Of a stretch of 29,392 nucleotides of DNA, positions 5,863 to 26,305 are shown one piece after another. Both the position numbers and the translations under genes were made by a program. The DNA lies in IMG/VR virus record IMGVR_UViG_3300017741_000032, positions 1 to 29,392 of that record. One strand, given 5' to 3'. Below the pieces are notes generated by a model. That model ran no database searches and had not been told where the DNA came from. It saw only the letters and a list, made by a program, of their open reading frames with translations. The stretch is from a virus. The stretch's first letter is position 1. The number at the start of each line of letters is the position of its first letter.

Positions 5863-8800
5863 ATGAGTTTCAATAAGAAGTTTTTTACAACAGGAGGTAT
5901 AGTAGCTTCATCTGGTGATGCGGCTTGTAGTACTGATTCGGTACAAGCATTTGGTGCAGATAATGCATTCAGTAGCAACATAGCTTTATATCAGCTTGAT
6001 GGTAATGATGATGATACCACAGGTAATTATAATGGTACAATTGATACTGGTGTAACTTACTCGGCTACAGGTGCAAAGTTTGGACAGGCTGCCAATTTTA
6101 ATGGTAGTAGTGCTATTGTATTGCCAAATACTATTTTATCTTCAGACTGTTCAATATCTACTTGGTTTAATTTAAATAGTAGCGGCACCACAGATACCCT
6201 TTTTGAATTTGACCACGAAAATAGGATTTTATTTAGACCACAATCAGGTAGTCATTCAGCTTATATAGGAAATAGCGGTTATTTTGACCACGGACTTTCT
6301 TTTTCTACTGGTCAGTGGTATCATTTAGTAATTACTTTTAGTGCAGGTAATCCTTTTAAAATTTATGTAGATGGTGTGTTATCTTCATATACAAGTGGAA
6401 ACACAAGTGTTTATTCGTTAAATCATGATAATATTTTAGGTGCGGCAAATCCTTCAGGAGGGGCTGGATTAAATGGAAAAATAGACCAAGTAAGAATCTT
6501 TGACAAAGCTATAAGTGCAGAAGATGTAGCAACGCTTTACGCTGAAACAGAATCAACCGCATCCAATACCAATCCATTAAGCGAAGGTGCAGGTGTAGCT
6601 TTATATTCTTTGGACTACGATGCTTCGGAAGCAAGTGGATATTACGATGGCACACCTACCAACGTTGAGTTCGGAGTAGGAGGCAAGATAAACTATGGCG
6701 CAAGGTTTAATGCGACCAGTAGTAACATAAATATTGGGGGTAATGTAGTTAATAGTCTGACTAAATTATCGGTTTCTATGTGGGTGTATTGGGATGGCAC
6801 AACTAATTCAAATGATGATTATTTTATTGCATTAGGAAAAGCAAGTTCAGGAAAAATATTTTCTGCTGATATAACAAATAGTACAGGAATAATTGGCTTT
6901 TATGATGGGGCATCTGTTTTAAATTCTACAGGTGCGGTATCAGCAAACACTTGGACACATATTGTTCTTACTGCTGATGCTACTGTTTTAAAAATGTATT
7001 TAAATGGTAATTTAGATTCTACCCATACAATTTCATCATTAAATTTTGATAGTAGTGGGAACGCAGGATTTATTGGCTCTTGGATAACAGGAACTGATTA
7101 TGAATTTGATGGCTCAATAGACCAAGTGAGGCTATTCTCTAAAGCGTTAAATTCAACAGAAGTCAGTACCCTTTACGCAGAAACCGCTTGTGTATATGAT
7201 TCCACCACAGGCGATAACTATTTTCCTTTAGCAGATGGTAGTAGTGATGCAGTCGCTTATTATAAATTAGACAATTCAGCAGAGGATTCTGTAGGTACTA
7301 ACGATGGTACTGAATATAATATAGAATACAGGTTTGGTCGCTTTGGTCAAGCTGCGGTGTTTAATGGGAGTAATAGTGGTATATTTATTTCTTCAACAGG
7401 AACAAGCGTTACAGACTATGACCAAGATTTTTCTATCTCTTGTTGGTTTAGATTTGATGATGGTTCTACAGGTGGTAACAATAACTTTTTGTTTATGGGC
7501 GGTGGCACAGAAAATGTGCAAATGTGGGTAACTCTTGCTAATGGTGTTCGTTTTCAGTTATATAATAACCCAACTGTTTACAAAGTCGATACAGGAGCAA
7601 TAAGCGCAAGAGTTTTTTATCATGTTGTAGCTACAAGAAGCAAAACAGATGGACTAAAAATCTATTTAGATGGTGTTGAAAAAGACACAGATTCATATAT
7701 TGGAAATGCAAATCCTGCTTTAAGTGGTAAAGATTCAATAGGACAGTATTTTGATGGTACACGAAACAACTTTGAAGGACTTATAGACCAAGTACGCATC
7801 TATTCATCTGCCCTTTCAGACAGTCAAGTAACCGAACTATACAACGAAAAACCTGAAGTAGATACATCTAACTTTAAGGCGGTGTTGTATGAGGGGAATG
7901 GGGATACTTCTAATGACACCTACATTTCAAACGTTGGTATTGATTTAGAAACTAATGGTGGATTAGTGTGGGTTAAAGCAAGAACCAATTACAACCACCT
8001 ACTAATGGATTCTGTAAGAGGTACTGACTCATTAACCTCCAATGACACGACTACTGAAAGTGCTAATTACAATAGATTTAAAAGCTACGAGGCTAATGGA
8101 TTTATGATTAGAGCCAATAATGCTGCAGATTTGTACAAGATTAACAGGACAGGCAACGCTTATGTTTCGTGGGTATTTAAGGGCGGCGGAGAGGCAGTCA
8201 ATATCGGAGTAAATACAATTACAGGCTCTACTCCTTCTATTGCATCAGATGTTAGTGCGAATACTGATGCAGGGTTTAGTATTGTAAAATATACAGGTAA
8301 TTCAACAAGTGGTGCAACAGTTGGACACGGACTTTCATCTACTCCTGAAATAATAATAGTAAAAAATTTAGATGCTAATTCTACAAATTGGATAGTTAAG
8401 ATTCCTTCAGTTATGCCTAATGACGAAGATTATCTATATTTAAATGAGACAAACGAAGTTCAAACCGCAGGCTCAACAACCTTTATAAGAACCGTAAATT
8501 CAAGCATTTTTACTTTGGGAGGTAGCAGTCAGACAAATTCTACAGATGATTTTATTGCCTACTGTTGGCATTCAGTTGCAGGATATAGTAAGATAGGTAC
8601 TTATGAAGGAAACGGAAATACAGATGGCCCAACAATATATACAACTGATAATGGTGCATCAGATGGCAGTAATGGTTTTGAGCCATCTTGGTTAATGATT
8701 AAACAAACAAGTGGTACAAGTCAATGGCTTATAGTGGATAACACACGAAACCCATCTAATCCAGTAAATGCAAGGTTAAGGGCAGATAAAAATAATGCCG

Positions 8801-10488: not shown

Positions 10489-10559
10489 GGTTAATGTTAT
10501 ATATTTGTGATGAGTTTATATCATATACTCGTATAGTTTTTTAATGGTTTATCCTTTTG

Positions 10560-10647: not shown

Positions 10648-11040
10648 ATGAATAGAGATAAACTAGCAAAACTCTACAAGAAGTATGAGCTTAGTTCTGA
10701 TGAAATATTCAAGCATCAGCACTATATGATTATCACCAGAGCAGGTATCGACAAGATACAGGCTATAGAGGGTATCAACATCGAGTATGATGTCATTAAT
10801 TCTTTACCTAACTTTTCAGTGGTTAAAGCCAATGCTAATAAAGGGGAAAAGAATATAGAAACCTTTGGTTCTGCCTTAAAGGGAGAAACCCATAGGGATG
10901 GAAACTGCAACACTTGGTACGTCATGGAAATGGCTGAGAAAAGAGCTATGAGTAGAGCTGTACTAAAGATGACAGGATTCTATGAGTTAGGAGTCTTTGG
11001 AGAAGATGAATCTGAGGATTTCAAAAGAAAGAATATTTAA
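10648..11040 (+). CDS. Conserved protein with ERF/annealase-like C-terminal motif
   Basis: A 130-residue protein, first gene of the replication operon and directly ahead of SSB. The C-terminal NTWYVMEMAEKRAMSRAVLK segment resembles the A-ETRA--RALR-AG pattern of ERF/Rad52-type single-strand annealing proteins, and FGEDESEDF gives an acidic end. The protein is shorter than full ERF or RecT proteins (usually about 200-300 residues). I recall homologues in flavophages annotated only as hypothetical. A recombination role is inferred from the motif, the SSB neighbour and the DUF3799 nuclease further on; it is not proven. Confidence 0.55.
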   Translation: MNRDKLAKLYKKYELSSDEIFKHQHYMIITRAGIDKIQAIEGINIEYDVINSLPNFSVVKANANKGEKNIETFGSALKGETHRDGNCNTWYVMEMAEKRAMSRAVLKMTGFYELGVFGEDESEDFKRKNI

Positions 11041-11419: not shown

Positions 11420-11716
11420 ATGAAAACTAGATTTATAAATATCAATGTTTCCTTCATGAATAAATCACTTAGTGTCACCGAAAGCGCATTGCTTTCTTTA
11501 ATAAAGGGATTGAGTAAGAAGAAAGGTTACTGTTTCGCTTCAAATAAGGCGATTTCCGACACTTTAAACATATCAGATAGGAACTTGTATAGGTTGCTTA
11601 ATAAACTCGAAGCACAGGGCTTTATAGAGCGTGATACTAAATCCACTGGACACTATGGAAAAGAGCGTAAGATTAGATTATCTCCAAGTGCCAATATGGC
11701 AGATTATAGTATATAG
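11420..11716 (+). CDS. Winged helix-turn-helix DNA-binding protein
   Basis: A 98-residue protein with a helix-turn-helix of the HTH_36/replication-protein type: LSVTESALLSLIKGLSKKKGYCFASNK forms the first helices, then ISDTLNISDRNLYRLLNKLEAQGFIER is the classical recognition helix followed by the wing. Phage and plasmid replication initiators (DnaD/O-like) carry such domains at the N-terminus; here the domain stands nearly alone. Located just before an AT-only stretch and the primase-helicase gene, it could bind a nearby origin or act as transcription regulator. The start MKTRFININVSF is the only good ATG. Confidence 0.65.
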   Translation: MKTRFININVSFMNKSLSVTESALLSLIKGLSKKKGYCFASNKAISDTLNISDRNLYRLLNKLEAQGFIERDTKSTGHYGKERKIRLSPSANMADYSI

Positions 11717-14034: not shown

Positions 14035-14552
14035 TAGATTTACTGGCAAAGAGTCATAAAGATTGGGTCAACATGGCAAAATCTTTCGGATGCACAAAGG
14101 AGCAATCTCATGAGTTAGTTCAGGAGATGTATGTTAGGCTGAATAAATACATAGATAAAAAGGACAAGATTATGTATAATGAATCTGAAGTCAATACATA
14201 TTATGTCTACGTTACTTTAAGGAATTTGTTCTTGTCTGGGTTTCATAAGGGAATAGACAAGCATCACTTACCTTTGAACGATGCTGTAGATGTTGAATCG
14301 AGTGTTGTAAATTACGAGAATGAAGATACTTTTAATACGCTTGTAGATGAAATAGAAGGGGTTGTATCATCATGGTACTGGTATGACAAGAAGATATGGG
14401 ACATACATTTCTATAAGAAAATGAGCATGAGAGGGATAGCAAGAGAAACTAAGATAAGTTTAAGTTCAATTTTTAATACGCTTAGTAATGCTAAACAAAA
14501 AGTCAGGGAAAAAACCGAAGAATATTATGAAGAATACAGGCAAACCAAGTAG
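14016..14552 (+). CDS. Sigma-70-like factor of phage type
   Basis: A 178-residue protein resembling sigma-70-like proteins of flavophages. An N-terminal region with DLLAKSHKDWVNMAKSFGCTKEQSHELVQEMYVRLNKYI corresponds to a region-2-like helix set, and the C-terminal MRGIARETKISLSSIFNTLSNAKQKV is a region-4-like helix-turn-helix. It starts at a TTG (14016), which gives the expected family N-terminus; no ATG is available before residue 20. Likely role: directing host RNA polymerase to phage late promoters, which would explain why the structural modules lack the host consensus. The alternative is another HTH regulator. Confidence 0.6.
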   Translation: MEKERLIDLLAKSHKDWVNMAKSFGCTKEQSHELVQEMYVRLNKYIDKKDKIMYNESEVNTYYVYVTLRNLFLSGFHKGIDKHHLPLNDAVDVESSVVNYENEDTFNTLVDEIEGVVSSWYWYDKKIWDIHFYKKMSMRGIARETKISLSSIFNTLSNAKQKVREKTEEYYEEYRQTK

Positions 14553-17296: not shown

Positions 17297-17485
17297 ATGT
17301 ATTTAGACAAGAAAGAATGTTTTGACGATATCCTCCACTCTCTTAGATTGGGAATTCTTCATGAAGCGGATATAAGATACCTCTTAGACTTCTATAAGGA
17401 GACTGAGAATTATGAATGTTGTCAGGGTGTTGTAGATGCTTACGTTGAATTTAAAAGAGAAATAAGTGGAATTAAAACAAATTAG
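17297..17485 (+). CDS. Small acidic helical protein, 62 residues
   Basis: A 62-residue protein with three predicted helices, several Cys (KKECFDD, YECCQG) and mixed charge. It starts right after the micropeptide and overlaps the DnaA-like gene by 20 bases. Not recognised; no catalytic motif. Confidence 0.5.
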   Translation: MYLDKKECFDDILHSLRLGILHEADIRYLLDFYKETENYECCQGVVDAYVEFKREISGIKTN

Positions 17486-17894
17486 AGAATTAGTAGAATT
17501 AGAATTTAAAATAGATATATCTCAGGCAACAAGGATAAGGGAGGTTGTTTATGTTAGAAACTTATATTATAAGTTAGCAAGAGACTATACTTCGTTTGGG
17601 TATTCTGATATAGGTAAAGAGATAAATAAAAATCATGCAACGGTAATTCATGGGGTTAAAACTATGGAGGAGGTAGTGTTACTTTATGACTCTAAGTTTA
17701 TAAAGGCTTACTCTAAAATATCAAGAATACTTAACAAGCTGACAAATGACCCTAAGAAATATCTTGAGCCTGATAGTTACTACAGAGAGAAGTACAAAGA
17801 ATTGGTGTTTGAACATAGGAAGCTTATCCATATATTTAGAGATGTAGATAAGGAATTAAAGCGTGTTAAAGGACTGGAGGTTTGTTGTGAGTAG
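17466..17894 (+). CDS. DnaA domain IV-like DNA-binding protein
   Basis: A 142-residue protein starting at a GTG (17466). Its middle, ARDYTSFGYSDIGKEINKNH followed by ATVIHGVKTMEEV, matches the DnaA C-terminal domain signature (S-xx-EIG-x-F-xx-RDHTTVLHA-xx-KI) that reads DnaA boxes. The AAA+ ATPase of DnaA is absent, so this is a stand-alone DNA-binding unit with a helical C-terminal extension (EKYKELVFEHRKLIHIFRDV). It could bind the phage origin, compete with host DnaA or regulate transcription. It overlaps genes on one side and lies just before small terminase. Confidence 0.65.
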   Translation: MELKQIRELVELEFKIDISQATRIREVVYVRNLYYKLARDYTSFGYSDIGKEINKNHATVIHGVKTMEEVVLLYDSKFIKAYSKISRILNKLTNDPKKYLEPDSYYREKYKELVFEHRKLIHIFRDVDKELKRVKGLEVCCE

Positions 17895-18261: not shown

Positions 18262-18376
18262 AGACCCAAAGAATTTCCCACAGGACTTTTGGAATTACTT
18301 AGTGAATCCAATATTGGGATACTATGTGAAACCTGCATCGAAGGTTTGGGGTAAACGTAATAAGAAGGATGAATAA
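18239..18376 (+). CDS. Small protein between the terminase genes, 45 residues
   Basis: An ATG at 18239 inside the end of the small terminase gene opens a 45-codon frame that ends eight bases into the large terminase gene. The product, with RDPKNFPQDFWNYLVNPILG and a basic end (SKVWGKRNKKDE), has no membrane segment. The tight overlaps with both terminase genes suggest real coupling. The role is unknown; an accessory packaging factor is possible. Confidence 0.5.
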   Translation: MARAKQIRDPKNFPQDFWNYLVNPILGYYVKPASKVWGKRNKKDE

Positions 18377-19580
18377 AGTAAATCTAAATCCTAAATACCA
18401 ATCTCTGTTCGATTCGGATAGTAGATACAGTGTGATTACTGGAGGTAGGGGTTCAGGTAAATCTTTCGCAGTAACAGTGTTCTTAGTGTTGCTCACTTAC
18501 GAAAAGAACAATAAAATATTGTTTACTCGTTATACTATGAGTTCAGCGAGTATGAGTATTATCCCTGAATTCATTGAGAAGCTAGAATTGATGGGAGTCA
18601 TCGAACACTTCACTGTTACCAAATATGAGATTATAAACAATCTAACAGGCAGTTCTATATATTTCTCAGGAATTAGAACCGCAAGTGGAGACCAGACTGC
18701 CAAACTTAAATCTATCAGTGGGGTCAATACTTTTGTATTGGATGAAGCGGAGGAGCTTACTGATGAAGAAAGCTTTGATAAAATAGATTACTCTATTCGT
18801 GCTAAAGGTGTAAGGAATCGTTGTTTGTTAATTCTAAACCCCACCACAAAAGAACACTGGATATATCAGAGGTTCTACCAGAATAGAGATATACCAGATG
18901 GATTCAACGGAGAAAGGAATAACGTAAACTATATCCATACCACCTACCAAGATAACATTGAGAATTTAAGTGGGTCGTTCGTAAATCAATTAGAGGAGAT
19001 GAGGGTGCGCAGACCTGATAAATTCAGGCATCAGATAATGGGAGGTTGGCTACAGAAAGCAGAGGGTGTAATCTTCACTGACTGGCAGATTGGACAATTC
19101 AATGAGGGTGTAGATTTAAAGGCATGGGGCTTGGATTGGGGATTTTCTAGAGATGCCTCAGCTCTTGTAAAAGTTGCCATTGACAAAGATAGAAAAATAA
19201 TCTGGGCAAAAGAATATCTATATAAAAAAGGATTGGTTACCTCTAACCTGTATGATGAATGCGTAAGACACGCAGGAAAAGAACTAATTATCTGCGACAA
19301 CTCTGAGCCTAGGCTTATTGCTGAATTGTCCACCAGAGGATTAAATCTAAGCCCTACAATAAAAAAGAAAGGTAGTATCTTGTCTGGTATTGCACTCATG
19401 CAAGACTATACTATAAATATAGAAGGGGAGAACCTAATCAAAGAGTTCAATAACTATGCTTGGGCTGTAAATGGCATAAAACCTATTGATTCCTACAATC
19501 ACCTTATCGACTCATTACGTTATTGTGTGCAGTATATGTTGACTCGTTCAGTGCCGAAAGGAATGTATATTGTAAAATAA
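18369..19580 (+). CDS. terL: Terminase large subunit (ATPase-nuclease motor)
   Basis: A 403-residue DNA packaging motor. The ATPase part has Walker A TGGRGSGKS (residues 24-32) and Walker B FVLDEAEEL (Asp125-Glu126), with LILNPT as motif C-like after it. The RNase H-fold nuclease part shows GLDWGFSRDASAL (Asp256), IICDNSEPR (Asp310) and HLIDSLRYC (Asp381) as metal ligands. Length and motifs fit the Terminase_3/PBSX-like group. It is followed by an intergenic region with promoter and terminator. It lies about 14 kb from the portal gene and on the far side of the replication genes, unlike the common terminase-portal order. Confidence 0.92.
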   Translation: MNKVNLNPKYQSLFDSDSRYSVITGGRGSGKSFAVTVFLVLLTYEKNNKILFTRYTMSSASMSIIPEFIEKLELMGVIEHFTVTKYEIINNLTGSSIYFSGIRTASGDQTAKLKSISGVNTFVLDEAEELTDEESFDKIDYSIRAKGVRNRCLLILNPTTKEHWIYQRFYQNRDIPDGFNGERNNVNYIHTTYQDNIENLSGSFVNQLEEMRVRRPDKFRHQIMGGWLQKAEGVIFTDWQIGQFNEGVDLKAWGLDWGFSRDASALVKVAIDKDRKIIWAKEYLYKKGLVTSNLYDECVRHAGKELIICDNSEPRLIAELSTRGLNLSPTIKKKGSILSGIALMQDYTINIEGENLIKEFNNYAWAVNGIKPIDSYNHLIDSLRYCVQYMLTRSVPKGMYIVK

Positions 19581-19613: not shown

Positions 19614-19686
19614 AATATATTTAGTTGATAATAAAATTTAATACTTAGTTTTTCATTTGTTTTTTTAGTTAATTATGTTTGTTTAG

Positions 19687-19718
19687 AGAGCCACCTGTAA
19701 AAGGGTGGTTCTTTTTTT
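19687..19718 (+). terminator. Terminator after terL
   Basis: AGAGCCACC (19687-19695) pairs with GGTGGTTCT (19704-19712) with one G-T pair, eight-base loop, then seven T (19712-19718). It is a strong rho-independent signal. Confidence 0.85.
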
Positions 19719-19739
19719 GTTAAAGTTTTGTTAAAACAT

Positions 19740-19769
19740 TTGGCAGTTGGAAAATAATTACTATCTTGC
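19740..19769 (+). promoter_or_regulatory. Probable promoter for the accessory gene block
   Basis: TTG (19740-19742, in TTTGGCAGTTGG), 19 bases, TATCTTGC (19762-19769), close to TAnnTTTG. It lies directly behind a GTTAAAG-type element (19718-19736). Transcription would start near 19775, ahead of the ATG at 19799. Confidence 0.6.
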
Positions 19770-19798
19770 ACTCGGATTAACATTAAAACTATATTATT

Positions 19799-20092
19799 AT
19801 GAGTATTACATTAAAAGAAATTCTAGACAAAGTATCGAATGGCAAAGTATTCTCTGCCAAATTCGTTAAGAAAGATGGCTCTATTAGAACCATGAACTGT
19901 AGAACAGGTGTTGTAAAACACGTCAAAGGTAAGGGTAGAAACTTCGACCCAATCACAGCTAATCTTATCCCAGTATGTGATATGAATTTACTTGCTAAAG
20001 GAATGGAGGAAGATTCCTACAGGTTCATCAATTACAGTAAACTTATCTGGATTCAGATAGAAGGTAAAACGTTTAACTTTAAAAACAAATAA
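19799..20092 (+). CDS. Conserved small protein, SH3-like
   Basis: A 97-residue beta-rich protein. The core AKFVKKDGSIRTMNCRTGV followed by VKHVKGKGRNFDPITANLIPV and a YRFINYSKLIWIQIEGK end matches a family I recall in many marine and enteric phages, with a small barrel likely. Its position as first gene behind its own promoter suggests early or high expression. Function unknown; binding to nucleic acid or host protein is possible given the basic KHVKGKGR loop. Confidence 0.6.
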   Translation: MSITLKEILDKVSNGKVFSAKFVKKDGSIRTMNCRTGVVKHVKGKGRNFDPITANLIPVCDMNLLAKGMEEDSYRFINYSKLIWIQIEGKTFNFKNK

Positions 20093-21385: not shown

Positions 21386-22156
21386 ATGGAATCATTATTA
21401 AAACAACAACAAGAGAAACTTGCCAACATGGTGCAGTTTAAAACCCAGAACAAAAAGAAATTTGAGATGGGAGTAACAGACAACCATGATTCTTTTAAGT
21501 TCTTTAAGTACAACAGAGCTATTAATAAAGCTAATTTAAAGAATGTCAAGAAATCTCTCCAGAAGAGAGGTCAGATAATGCCAGTGCTGATAACCAAAGA
21601 CTTTAAAGTTATAGATGGTCAGCATAGGGTAGTAGCTCTACAGGAGCTTGGATTGCCAATTCATTACACTATATGCTTTGATTACATAACCAATGATGTG
21701 GAGGAGGTTAATAACGTAGGGAAGAACTGGGACATCAGAGCAAGGGTAAATAACTTAGCCGAGCATGGAGATGTAAATTATATTGAACTTTTAAATATGT
21801 ATAAAGAATGGGGTCATACATTTTCGGAAGGCACTATCAATGATGCTTTTTTTAAAACAGGTGTAAATTCATCTAAACCAATAAGAGAAAAATCATATAC
21901 TATACATAAAAATCTTGGAACTGAAGTTTTAGAAAATGCTATAATCATGAATGATATTGTGCCTAAAGCAACTCAAAATAAATTTGTGAGAGCGTTAAAA
22001 ACTGTTATGATAAGTAATACTAATTTCGATATAGATACTCTTAGATATAAAGCCGAGAACAGGAGATTAAATGTATATAACAATGAGGGTGAAATCAAAG
22101 ATGAAATCATTGAAGTTTATAATTACCGCACCAGAGAAGCTAAGAGAATAAAATAA
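21386..22156 (+). CDS. ParB/Srx-fold (ParB N-terminal domain-like) protein
   Basis: A 256-residue protein. Residues about 40-98 (LKNVKKSLQKRGQIMPVLIT then VIDGQHRVVALQELGLPI) form a ParB N-terminal/sulfiredoxin-like domain with the nucleotide-binding DGQHR box at 77-81. The remainder is helical and not recognisable as the ParB DNA-binding HTH, so it is not a normal partition protein. Phage proteins of this type act as CTP-dependent DNA binders, nucleases or transcription regulators. Spaced repeats start at its stop codon, suggesting it may bind there. It closes a run of co-oriented small genes. Confidence 0.7.
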   Translation: MESLLKQQQEKLANMVQFKTQNKKKFEMGVTDNHDSFKFFKYNRAINKANLKNVKKSLQKRGQIMPVLITKDFKVIDGQHRVVALQELGLPIHYTICFDYITNDVEEVNNVGKNWDIRARVNNLAEHGDVNYIELLNMYKEWGHTFSEGTINDAFFKTGVNSSKPIREKSYTIHKNLGTEVLENAIIMNDIVPKATQNKFVRALKTVMISNTNFDIDTLRYKAENRRLNVYNNEGEIKDEIIEVYNYRTREAKRIK

Positions 22157-22221
22157 ATTCAATAGGTGTAAATTCAATACCCTCAAATGTGAATTCAATA
22201 CCCCCCAATGTGAATTCAATA
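22156..22221 (+). repeat. Four AATTCAATA repeats, iteron-like
   Basis: AATTCAATA occurs at 22156, 22171, 22192 and 22213. The last two copies sit in 21-bp units of the form TGTGAATTCAATACCCCC; the third repeat interval matches two DNA helix turns. The stretch follows the ParB-fold gene and runs into a terminator. It may be a binding site for a DNA-binding protein. Confidence 0.7.
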
Positions 22222-22245
22222 CCCCCTTTTTTGGGGGTTTTTTTA
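22221..22245 (+). terminator. Terminator after the repeat cluster
   Basis: ACCCCC (22221-22226) pairs with GGGGGT (22233-22238) around TTTTTT and is followed by T residues to 22244. The 5' arm is also part of the last repeat unit. Confidence 0.8.
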
Positions 22246-22290
22246 TTGCCTATTTTACATAATTTTTAATATGTTAAAGTTTTGTTAAAA

Positions 22291-25742: not shown

Positions 25743-26305
25743 TTGCTAAATTCAAAAATACAGATGCCTACATGAAATCATTCTCTAAGAGATTGGTTGA
25801 GCTTCTGCGTATTGAATTAGAGCGTAACAGAACAAGAAGCGGTTCAAGAGGCAGTTATAGTGGAAAAATTAATGATACAGGAGAATTAGCAAGAAGTCTT
25901 AAATCAATGTATCAAAAAACGGATTCAGGATTTTCATATGATATTCGAGGATTGGAATATGGTAAGGCAGTTGATGAAGGTAGAAAAGGTGGTAGACCTC
26001 CTTCTACAGATGTATTAATACCTTGGATACAAAGCAAACCTATAAGGTTAAAAGATGCAACTGGTAAGTTTGCTAAGGTTAAAGATAAACAGTATAGAAT
26101 AAAGCAATTAGCATTTGCTATACAAAAGAAAATAAGAAGGGAAGGAATACGCCCTACAAATTTTATAGGGGATGCTATAGAGATTGCGATGCAACAAATA
26201 AATTCTATAGCAGAACCAATAGAAAAAGATATACACCTCAACTTAGATGAGATATTCAAAAGGGCAGGTTACACTAAAAAAGGAGACGATTATATAATAG
26301 AATAA
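25733..26305 (+). CDS. HK97 gp10-like tail completion/neck protein
   Basis: A 190-residue basic protein. The core SGKINDTGELARSLKSMYQK followed by RGLEYGKAVDEGRKGGRPPS and IPWIQSKPI corresponds to the L--SI-----...YA-YVD-GR-PG...P---W pattern of HK97 gp10/neck proteins. The C-terminal half is helical and charged. It overlaps the previous gene by ten bases. It should complete the head-tail joint or tail end. Confidence is moderate because the family is diverse. Confidence 0.6.
   Translation: MSIVAKFKNTDAYMKSFSKRLVELLRIELERNRTRSGSRGSYSGKINDTGELARSLKSMYQKTDSGFSYDIRGLEYGKAVDEGRKGGRPPSTDVLIPWIQSKPIRLKDATGKFAKVKDKQYRIKQLAFAIQKKIRREGIRPTNFIGDAIEIAMQQINSIAEPIEKDIHLNLDEIFKRAGYTKKGDDYIIE

Follow-up and report, generated by a model that had tools for sequence, protein, structure and literature searches.

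The repeat array behind the ParB-fold gene

The window, by which we mean the whole stretch analyzed here, an IMG/VR virus record of 29,392 nucleotides, contains an open reading frame on the plus strand at 21386-22156 that encodes a protein with a ParB-like N-terminal domain (phrog_12305, E 3e-22, residues 22-153). A word search located AATTCAATA four times on the same strand at the end of this gene, at 22156-22164 (TAAATTCAATAGG), 22171-22179 (TGTAAATTCAATACCC), 22192-22200 (TGTGAATTCAATACCCCCC) and 22213-22221 (TGTGAATTCAATACCCCC), with start-to-start spacings of 15, 21 and 21 bp. The TAA stop codon of the gene (22154-22156) overlaps the first site by one base, the last base of the codon being the first base of the site. 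This confirmed an earlier sequence-only reading, which had described four copies that start at the stop of the ParB-fold gene, the last three 21 bp apart. Chance is excluded as the source of the cluster. Three copies within 100 bp on one strand occurred in none of 400 order-1 resampled sequences, and the Poisson expectation for four copies in 66 bp is about 2e-10 per window. A search for further copies elsewhere had been suggested, and one more exact copy was present in the window, on the minus strand at 25810, within a gene. Under a looser pattern, the window contains five same-strand sites.

The array leads into an intrinsic terminator (22221-22244, plus strand) predicted from the sequence and the RNA fold. 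Its layout is CCCCC (22222-22226), TTTTTT, GGGGG (22233-22237) and TTTTTTT, i.e., a GC hairpin followed by a T-run, as expected for this class of terminators. In the predicted fold (-12.1 kcal/mol, z -1.46), A22221 and the following C-run pair with 22233-22238. The last repeat unit had been thought to supply the 5' arm. This is correct for its final base, A22221, but the rest of the arm is mainly the C-run past the last copy, because the fold uses only this A of the unit. The broader suggestion was supported in that the repeats look like functional sites tied to the terminator, and they are conserved in relatives.

A single variant site, AATTTAATA followed by C, is located at 19635-19643 (plus strand), past the gene for the terminase large subunit (18369-19580, plus strand). 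The site is weak by itself. It is flanked by a promoter-like TTG-N20-TAGATTTG (from 19583) and by a terminator-like hairpin, and in several relatives site clusters were found shortly past the terminase gene.

Protein searches with the ParB-fold sequence led to six loci, one of which ends inside the gene. All of the other five, which have an intact 3' end, keep the array. The spacing was conserved in part: L004 retains 15, 21 and 21 bp, and the other four differ (15, 21 and 17 bp in three, and six units in one if variants are counted). L001, L002, L003 and L005 have a different terminator-like hairpin (GGGGTTGTTCC...GGTTCAATCCC), the 5' arm of which starts right past the last unit, as in the window.

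For broader comparisons, we used 27 contigs, namely the window and 26 of 30 array-bearing IMG/VR records, which are related fragments and were not weighted. Open reading frame calls in this set were crude (longest first, mostly ATG starts). A terminase was found in 24 of the 27 contigs including the window, the other 23 being 69-99% identical to that of the window; judged by this protein, the array contigs belong to one phage group.

The sequence-only reading had also raised the possibility that the ParB-fold protein binds the repeats, either as a parS-like partition site or as a ParB-regulated site. The gene does adjoin the array in the window and in the five relatives with intact 3' ends. 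However, it is present in only 2 of the 27 array-bearing contigs, and the proposed link therefore falls. The 35 arrays with at least three sites in these contigs stand behind 25 gene families according to the crude ORF calls, and the ParB family accounts for two of them. Of 580 terminase loci, the best 80 were searched for the gene, and one gave a ParB match, although many of the 80 end short of that region. We rejected the ParB-fold protein as the binder on this gene distribution. Unlike a ParB-parS pair, moreover, the site here is not palindromic: it is asymmetric outside TGAATTCA, and its position weight matrix did not reveal an inverted repeat. A Pfam search of the protein returned no match, no helix-turn-helix was recognised, and the structure model was of low confidence (pLDDT 49.5). 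Altogether, a ParB-parS system at this locus appears extremely improbable.

Two other elements lie close to the array. GTTAAAGTTTTGTTAAA (22273-22289, plus strand), placed 3' of the terminator and 5' of the next genes, consists of two near-direct repeats about one helix turn apart and recurs at 19719-19735, directly past a terminator and before the next genes. The related pattern GTTAAA[AG]TTTTGTTAAA has 16 same-strand copies and one opposite copy in the 27 contigs, and distant relatives have CTTAACATT repeats at a similar place. TATTAACTAAAATT occurs shortly 5' of two ATG codons in the window (22353 and 22520), and a similar sequence precedes ATG codons of relatives; it is perhaps a shared 5' leader.

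The site and its variants in related phages

When viral contigs were scanned for three copies of the pattern, at least 119 stretches emerged, and these 119 were all inspected. By eye, most were arrays of the same kind, many of them directly past a stop codon and behind different genes, and a minority were plain tandem repeats. Tandem repeats and other contexts were left out by eye (L015, L046, L062, L067, L072, L096, L123 and L128-L132), which gave a motif set of 71 non-redundant arrays with 270 sites. One scan of bacterial genomes returned 4 stretches, by eye tandem repeats in other contexts. Two of these stretches, in L129 (a Phycisphaeraceae MAG) and L132 (a gammaproteobacterial MAG), do contain tandem AATTCAATAGG units.

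The consensus of the 270 sites was TRTV-AATTYAATA-SS, with T at frequencies of.76 at the first and.81 at the third position, T at 0.00 at the V position, and G (.53) or C (.42) straight after the word. Arrays comprise 2-7 sites at operon boundaries, and the word stays the same while spacers and preceding genes differ. Spacings in the 71 arrays were 15 bp (35 cases), 16 (24), 17 (49), 18 (5), 19 (24), 21 (33), 27 (8) and 31 (6), with a few others from 11 to 32 and none at 20. Since spacings vary across arrays, the 21-bp phasing that had been noted in the window is no rule; the commonest values (15, 16, 17, 19 and 21 in the non-redundant arrays) do not fit helical phasing. The repeat also does not appear to be translated. 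The units are open in one frame in the window (by eye), but the spacings of 16, 17 and 19 bp in relatives break the frame.

The terminase large subunit served as a motif-blind anchor for relatives. The window protein is 52% identical to that of the Nonlabens phages P12024L/S (from seawater), its best named matches, and the phage group, which is uncultured, is by this criterion nearest to marine flavobacterial siphophages among named phages. The best 80 of 580 terminase loci were divided into 44 close (at least 68% identity) and 36 distant ones (at most 61%), and the 4 kb past the terminase gene were examined wherever at least 2.5 kb were available. Among the close relatives so examined, 20 of 21 had arrays of the A word (TVAATTYAATA), and in the exception, L195, the looser pattern revealed a cluster of two sites at +2012. 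Among the distant relatives, 15 of 19 had B arrays (TTAAACGCAGTA or TTAAACATAGTA, with close variants) and two had C arrays (TTTAATATRATG followed by G); inspection of the remaining two, L242 and L245, revealed the related words TGTTTAATATGGAGGGG and TCCGTCTTTGTTATGG. Within these best 80 loci, the distant relatives had no A arrays and the close relatives had neither B nor C arrays, and past the terminase gene none of the three array types was found on the opposite strand.

The B and C words emerged from a de novo analysis of intergenic k-mers in the 36 distant loci, in which TTAAACGCAG has 80 copies in 19 loci and none on the opposite strand. Spacings in the distant arrays range from 17 to 44 bp and are often 17 or 21, and a site includes the stop codon of the terminase gene in 9 of these 36 loci. 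Aligned by eye at the G/C run, the A word, the B word TAAACGCAGTA and the B2 word TAAACATAGTA have TVAAYNYARTA in common. This alignment suggests one architecture with words exchanged between sister lineages, each word change being counted as one or few events. The more distant named phages P12024L and Harreka_1 did not have a comparable enriched word (1 and 2 exact copies, 1 and 5 copies under the looser pattern), nor did they show such an array, which for P12024L refers to the intergenic regions that were inspected.

These patterns also bear on whether the arrays might be functionless products of neutral repeat expansion at a terminator. The variable unit number and spacers would fit such an origin. 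The word, however, is constant across divergent spacers, genes and terminators, other lineages have other words in the same region, and the sites have a single orientation (see below), so that we regard neutral expansion as very unlikely.

The position following the word deserves separate mention. Among the loci selected by terminase, 128 of 153 array sites of the A word have G or C directly behind the word, 24 have T and one has A; the B word is followed by G or C in 117 of 118 sites, and the C word by G in all 14. In unit 2 of the array, a G-run in one of the close relatives L039 and L040 is swapped for a C-run in the other (AATAGGTAAATG versus AATACCTAAATA). Mini-hairpins formed in the RNA by alternating G- and C-runs were considered and rejected: adjacent runs were opposite in 75 cases and the same in 80, with a shuffled expectation of 74.5 +/- 4.4 for opposite runs, and the 71 arrays did not fold better than after random G/C flips (mean z 0.09). 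Readout of duplex DNA through the minor groove or through its shape could account for G and C being interchangeable in the absence of pairing.

Orientation, promoters and a putative regulator

In intergenic regions of at least 70 bp of the 27 contigs, 165 sites were on the coding strand and none on the opposite strand. With exact words and another ORF call, the intergenic count was 120 to 1, the exception being G020 21412. Inside open reading frames of the same contigs, the exact word occurred 93 times on the same and 13 times on the opposite strand. Because nearly all genes are on one strand, orientation with respect to transcription is inseparable from orientation with respect to replication or packaging. 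Many first sites are close to the end of a gene, overlapping the stop codon in 11 of 60 site-bearing regions and lying at most 15 nt from it in 23 of 60. Between two and four site clusters were counted in 15 of the 27 contigs, and one in the remaining 12, including the window.

Bacteroidota-type promoters have the consensus TTG-N20-TAnnTTTG. The TAnnTTTG element was found in 38 of 60 site-bearing regions and in 33 of 154 others (odds ratio 6.3, p 1.4e-8, related contigs unweighted). Site-bearing regions are longer than others, and we therefore compared regions with and without sites by length: the element was present in 3/6 versus 7/82 regions of 70-120 bp, 7/9 versus 13/41 of 120-200 bp, 19/33 versus 8/24 of 200-400 bp, and 9/12 versus 5/7 of greater length. 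By these counts, short regions have a clear excess of the promoter element, which fades in the longest class. Of 274 sites, seven fall within the spacer of a TTG-N18-21-TAnnTT[TC]G element, versus about 0.6 expected for a uniform distribution (G019 8137, G011 496, G015 19699, G028 16481, G027 2885, and one each in G024 and G026). The sites in G019, G011, G015, G024 and G026 are in the region ahead of a gene that we take to be Erf-type. Downstream of G028 16481 and G027 2885, a gene of family 8 begins 11 bp past the first base of the last site in the cluster.

Some of these regions show additional structure. In G011 (467-640), G015 (19670-19850), G024 and G019 (8114-8287), a terminator-like hairpin lies roughly 60-100 nt past the site-bearing TATATTTG, with a second TAnnTTTG located between this hairpin and the Erf-type gene. 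The first promoter in these four contigs could yield a short RNA. In the window, the promoter-like TATATTTG ahead of the open reading frame at 10648 (window 10500-10540) is followed by an imperfect inverted repeat, GAGTTTATATCATATACTC, which is possibly a different operator. This promoter region contains no sites, unlike its counterpart in G009 and G023.

The same sites are thus present in arrays beside operon-end terminators and, in several relatives, in or around Bacteroidota-type promoters. The motif, the arrays, their single orientation, intergenic placement and promoter enrichment, and the lineage-specific replacement of the word lead us to propose that the arrays are putative binding sites of a sequence-specific DNA-binding regulator at operon boundaries, with a probability of roughly 0.5. 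The asymmetric TRTV-AATTYAATA-SS sites would be recognised by a regulator of this phage group, presumably as double-stranded DNA. A site that overlaps a promoter, between -33 and -7 or just after -7, would be placed to repress initiation. An array that precedes a terminator would act on elongation or read-through, stopping or tuning RNA polymerase as it passes from one operon towards the next. If the bound protein has to meet RNA polymerase from one side, a single orientation is expected.

The sites might instead act in the RNA, with AAUUCAAUA repeats in the 3' end of the mRNA recruiting an RNA-binding protein with control over termination, read-through or decay. The strict sense orientation, the proximity to stop codons described above and the many arrays that lead into terminator-like hairpins all agree with this, and even the site-bearing promoter regions of the Erf-type gene are located between a stop codon and a terminator-like hairpin. 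An RNA element would not be expected, however, between promoter elements, where the 7 sites mentioned above are found, some just before a start codon. It would also fit poorly with the interchangeable G- and C-runs in A arrays and with the lack of selected pairing between runs. An Rfam search gave nothing at gathering score; three matches under that score were taken as chance. Action at the RNA level therefore appears rather unlikely. Tandem phage promoters were also considered and rejected, because the window array runs straight into the terminator and transcripts would be about 20 nt long.

If the sites are bound by a DNA-binding regulator, it is most likely encoded by the phage. The leading candidate in this clade, judged from its sequence and gene order, is a stand-alone winged-helix protein of 98 aa (11420-11716, plus strand; HTH_36, E 2e-9), for which AlphaFold produced a model with pLDDT 71.8 and pTM 0.63. 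Residues invariant in eight relatives are mostly in its recognition helix and wing, and gene order places its gene downstream of a promoter region in which several relatives have sites. Among the best 80 of 580 terminase loci, the gene was seen in 18 of the 44 close ones, and these comprise every one of the 16 that extend at least 7 kb upstream. It was seen in none of the 36 distant loci, 19 of which extend as far. It is missing from 8 of the 27 contigs, none of which holds both flanking genes. The winged-helix gene and the A word follow one and the same clade split, and their association is therefore confounded by ancestry. In the distant clade, a search with the winged-helix protein gave matches of E 0.03-0.13 only, at 3 of 20 loci, and a comparison with a phage collection gave no match at E 0.01. 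As the distant clade has arrays and no clear relative of the protein, another protein must bind there.

The structural matches of the winged-helix model may also point in a different direction. Its best PDB titles were a DNA binding protein N-terminal domain and an initiator (E 3e-4 and 9e-4), followed by MarR-type regulators, TubR and a Rep-DNA complex. These matches are weak and generic, an E of 0.001 or better being reached by 2 of 1768. Plasmid and phage origins have iterons, which are direct repeats of similar length and spacing near AT-rich DNA, and the arrays resemble them in all of these respects. The winged-helix protein, whose gene adjoins that of a primase-helicase, might accordingly be an initiator that binds the repeats at a replication origin. 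In all 10 contigs examined, the maximum of the mean-corrected cumulative GC skew was located between 3.1 kb before and 0.25 kb after the array. This turn may, however, simply reflect that gene content changes where two operons meet, and a common turn of the AT skew was absent. Iterons should also be confined to a single locus, whereas the sites form two to four clusters in more than half of the contigs, some of them on promoters. The distant clade, which keeps the arrays, had a clear helicase match at 1 of 20 loci, in addition to having no clear winged-helix relative. We consider an iteron function unlikely.

Another potential binder, a DnaA domain IV-like protein (17466-17894, plus strand, GTG start), appears unlikely. 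The protein has 142 aa, of which residues 5-66 only are covered by the Pfam match (PF08299, E 6e-11). It is very variable, and most phages of the group encode it, its gene lying next to those of the terminase on one side and to a conserved small gene on the other. It occurs in both clades and varies strongly inside the A clade, including the recognition region, although an H-[AST]-T core is kept there. It was not detected in two array-bearing phages, L198/L232 (which show the same proteins) and L213, both of which have site clusters. A further candidate, a protein at 14073-14552 that we presumed to be sigma-like, is also present in both clades. It had no Pfam match, and its profile weakly matched (E 0.0014) a P12024L region annotated as sigma-70 region 2.

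Comparison with known systems

The sites share some features with DnaA boxes. They are asymmetric, these phages encode the DnaA domain IV-like protein, and TGTGAAT resembles the reverse of TTATNCACA. In contrast to DnaA boxes, the TGTG part is the variable part of the site here, and two array-bearing phages are without a detectable DnaA domain IV-like protein. By raw count, no contig has more than 3 copies of TGTGNATAA itself.

To our knowledge, little is known about gene control in marine flavobacterial phages. Searches of the open-licence literature for the site string, for flavophage repeats or promoters, for asymmetric repeats of short length, and for stoperators of Bacteroidetes phages returned nothing on this element, and the accessible part of PMC11267871 holds no mention of such sites.

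The closest parallel that we found is with the operators and stoperators of Cluster A mycobacteriophages (L5 gp71, Bxb1 gp69). According to the accessible parts of the respective papers, these are asymmetric sites of about 13 bp that are mostly intergenic or at gene ends, have one orientation to transcription, and are also found at promoters (PMC3029335, PMC9283540). In the part of PMC3029335 available, their consensus differs between subclusters with some positions invariant, and there are 23-36 sites per genome. The sites described here are likewise asymmetric, of about 13 bp and intergenic, with one orientation (165 to 0, in contigs that have nearly all genes on one strand). Judging from sequence, some are located at promoters, as in the seven promoter spacers of relatives. 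Their consensus likewise changes from one related phage group to another while some positions stay the same. Unlike Cluster A stoperators, they are grouped in arrays of 2-7, often beside terminators. The contigs contain 4-23 same-strand sites each, and one of the 27 has more than 20, in counts that use the looser pattern, include coding copies and refer to fragments. The presumed hosts are Bacteroidota, and the temperate lifestyle and HTH repressor of the Cluster A system did not find a counterpart. The PF00589 integrase and the PF01381 repressor, the two families searched for, were found in none of the 30 records, some of which may be fragments, and lysogeny is doubtful for this reason.

On this basis, we tentatively entertain a more far-reaching possibility. 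Probably lytic phages of marine Bacteroidota might have a stoperator-like layer of orientation-locked, lineage-specific arrays that are fused to terminators and promoters at major operon boundaries. Each lineage would have replaced the word (AATTCAATA, TTAAACGCAGTA, TTAAACATAGTA or TTTAATATRATG) throughout its genome together with its binder, resulting in a private transcription code between co-infecting phages. Independently of this possibility, a conserved and directly recognisable site marks operon borders in these phages, and the alignable variants of sister lineages provide a ready-made code with which to trace the regulator and the shifts in its specificity.

We do not claim that the arrays are members of the Cluster A family, but by analogy they may work like its operators and stoperators. 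If they do halt RNA polymerase in one direction, the stoperator principle would apply to an unrelated group of phages as well, and perhaps within a lytic programme.
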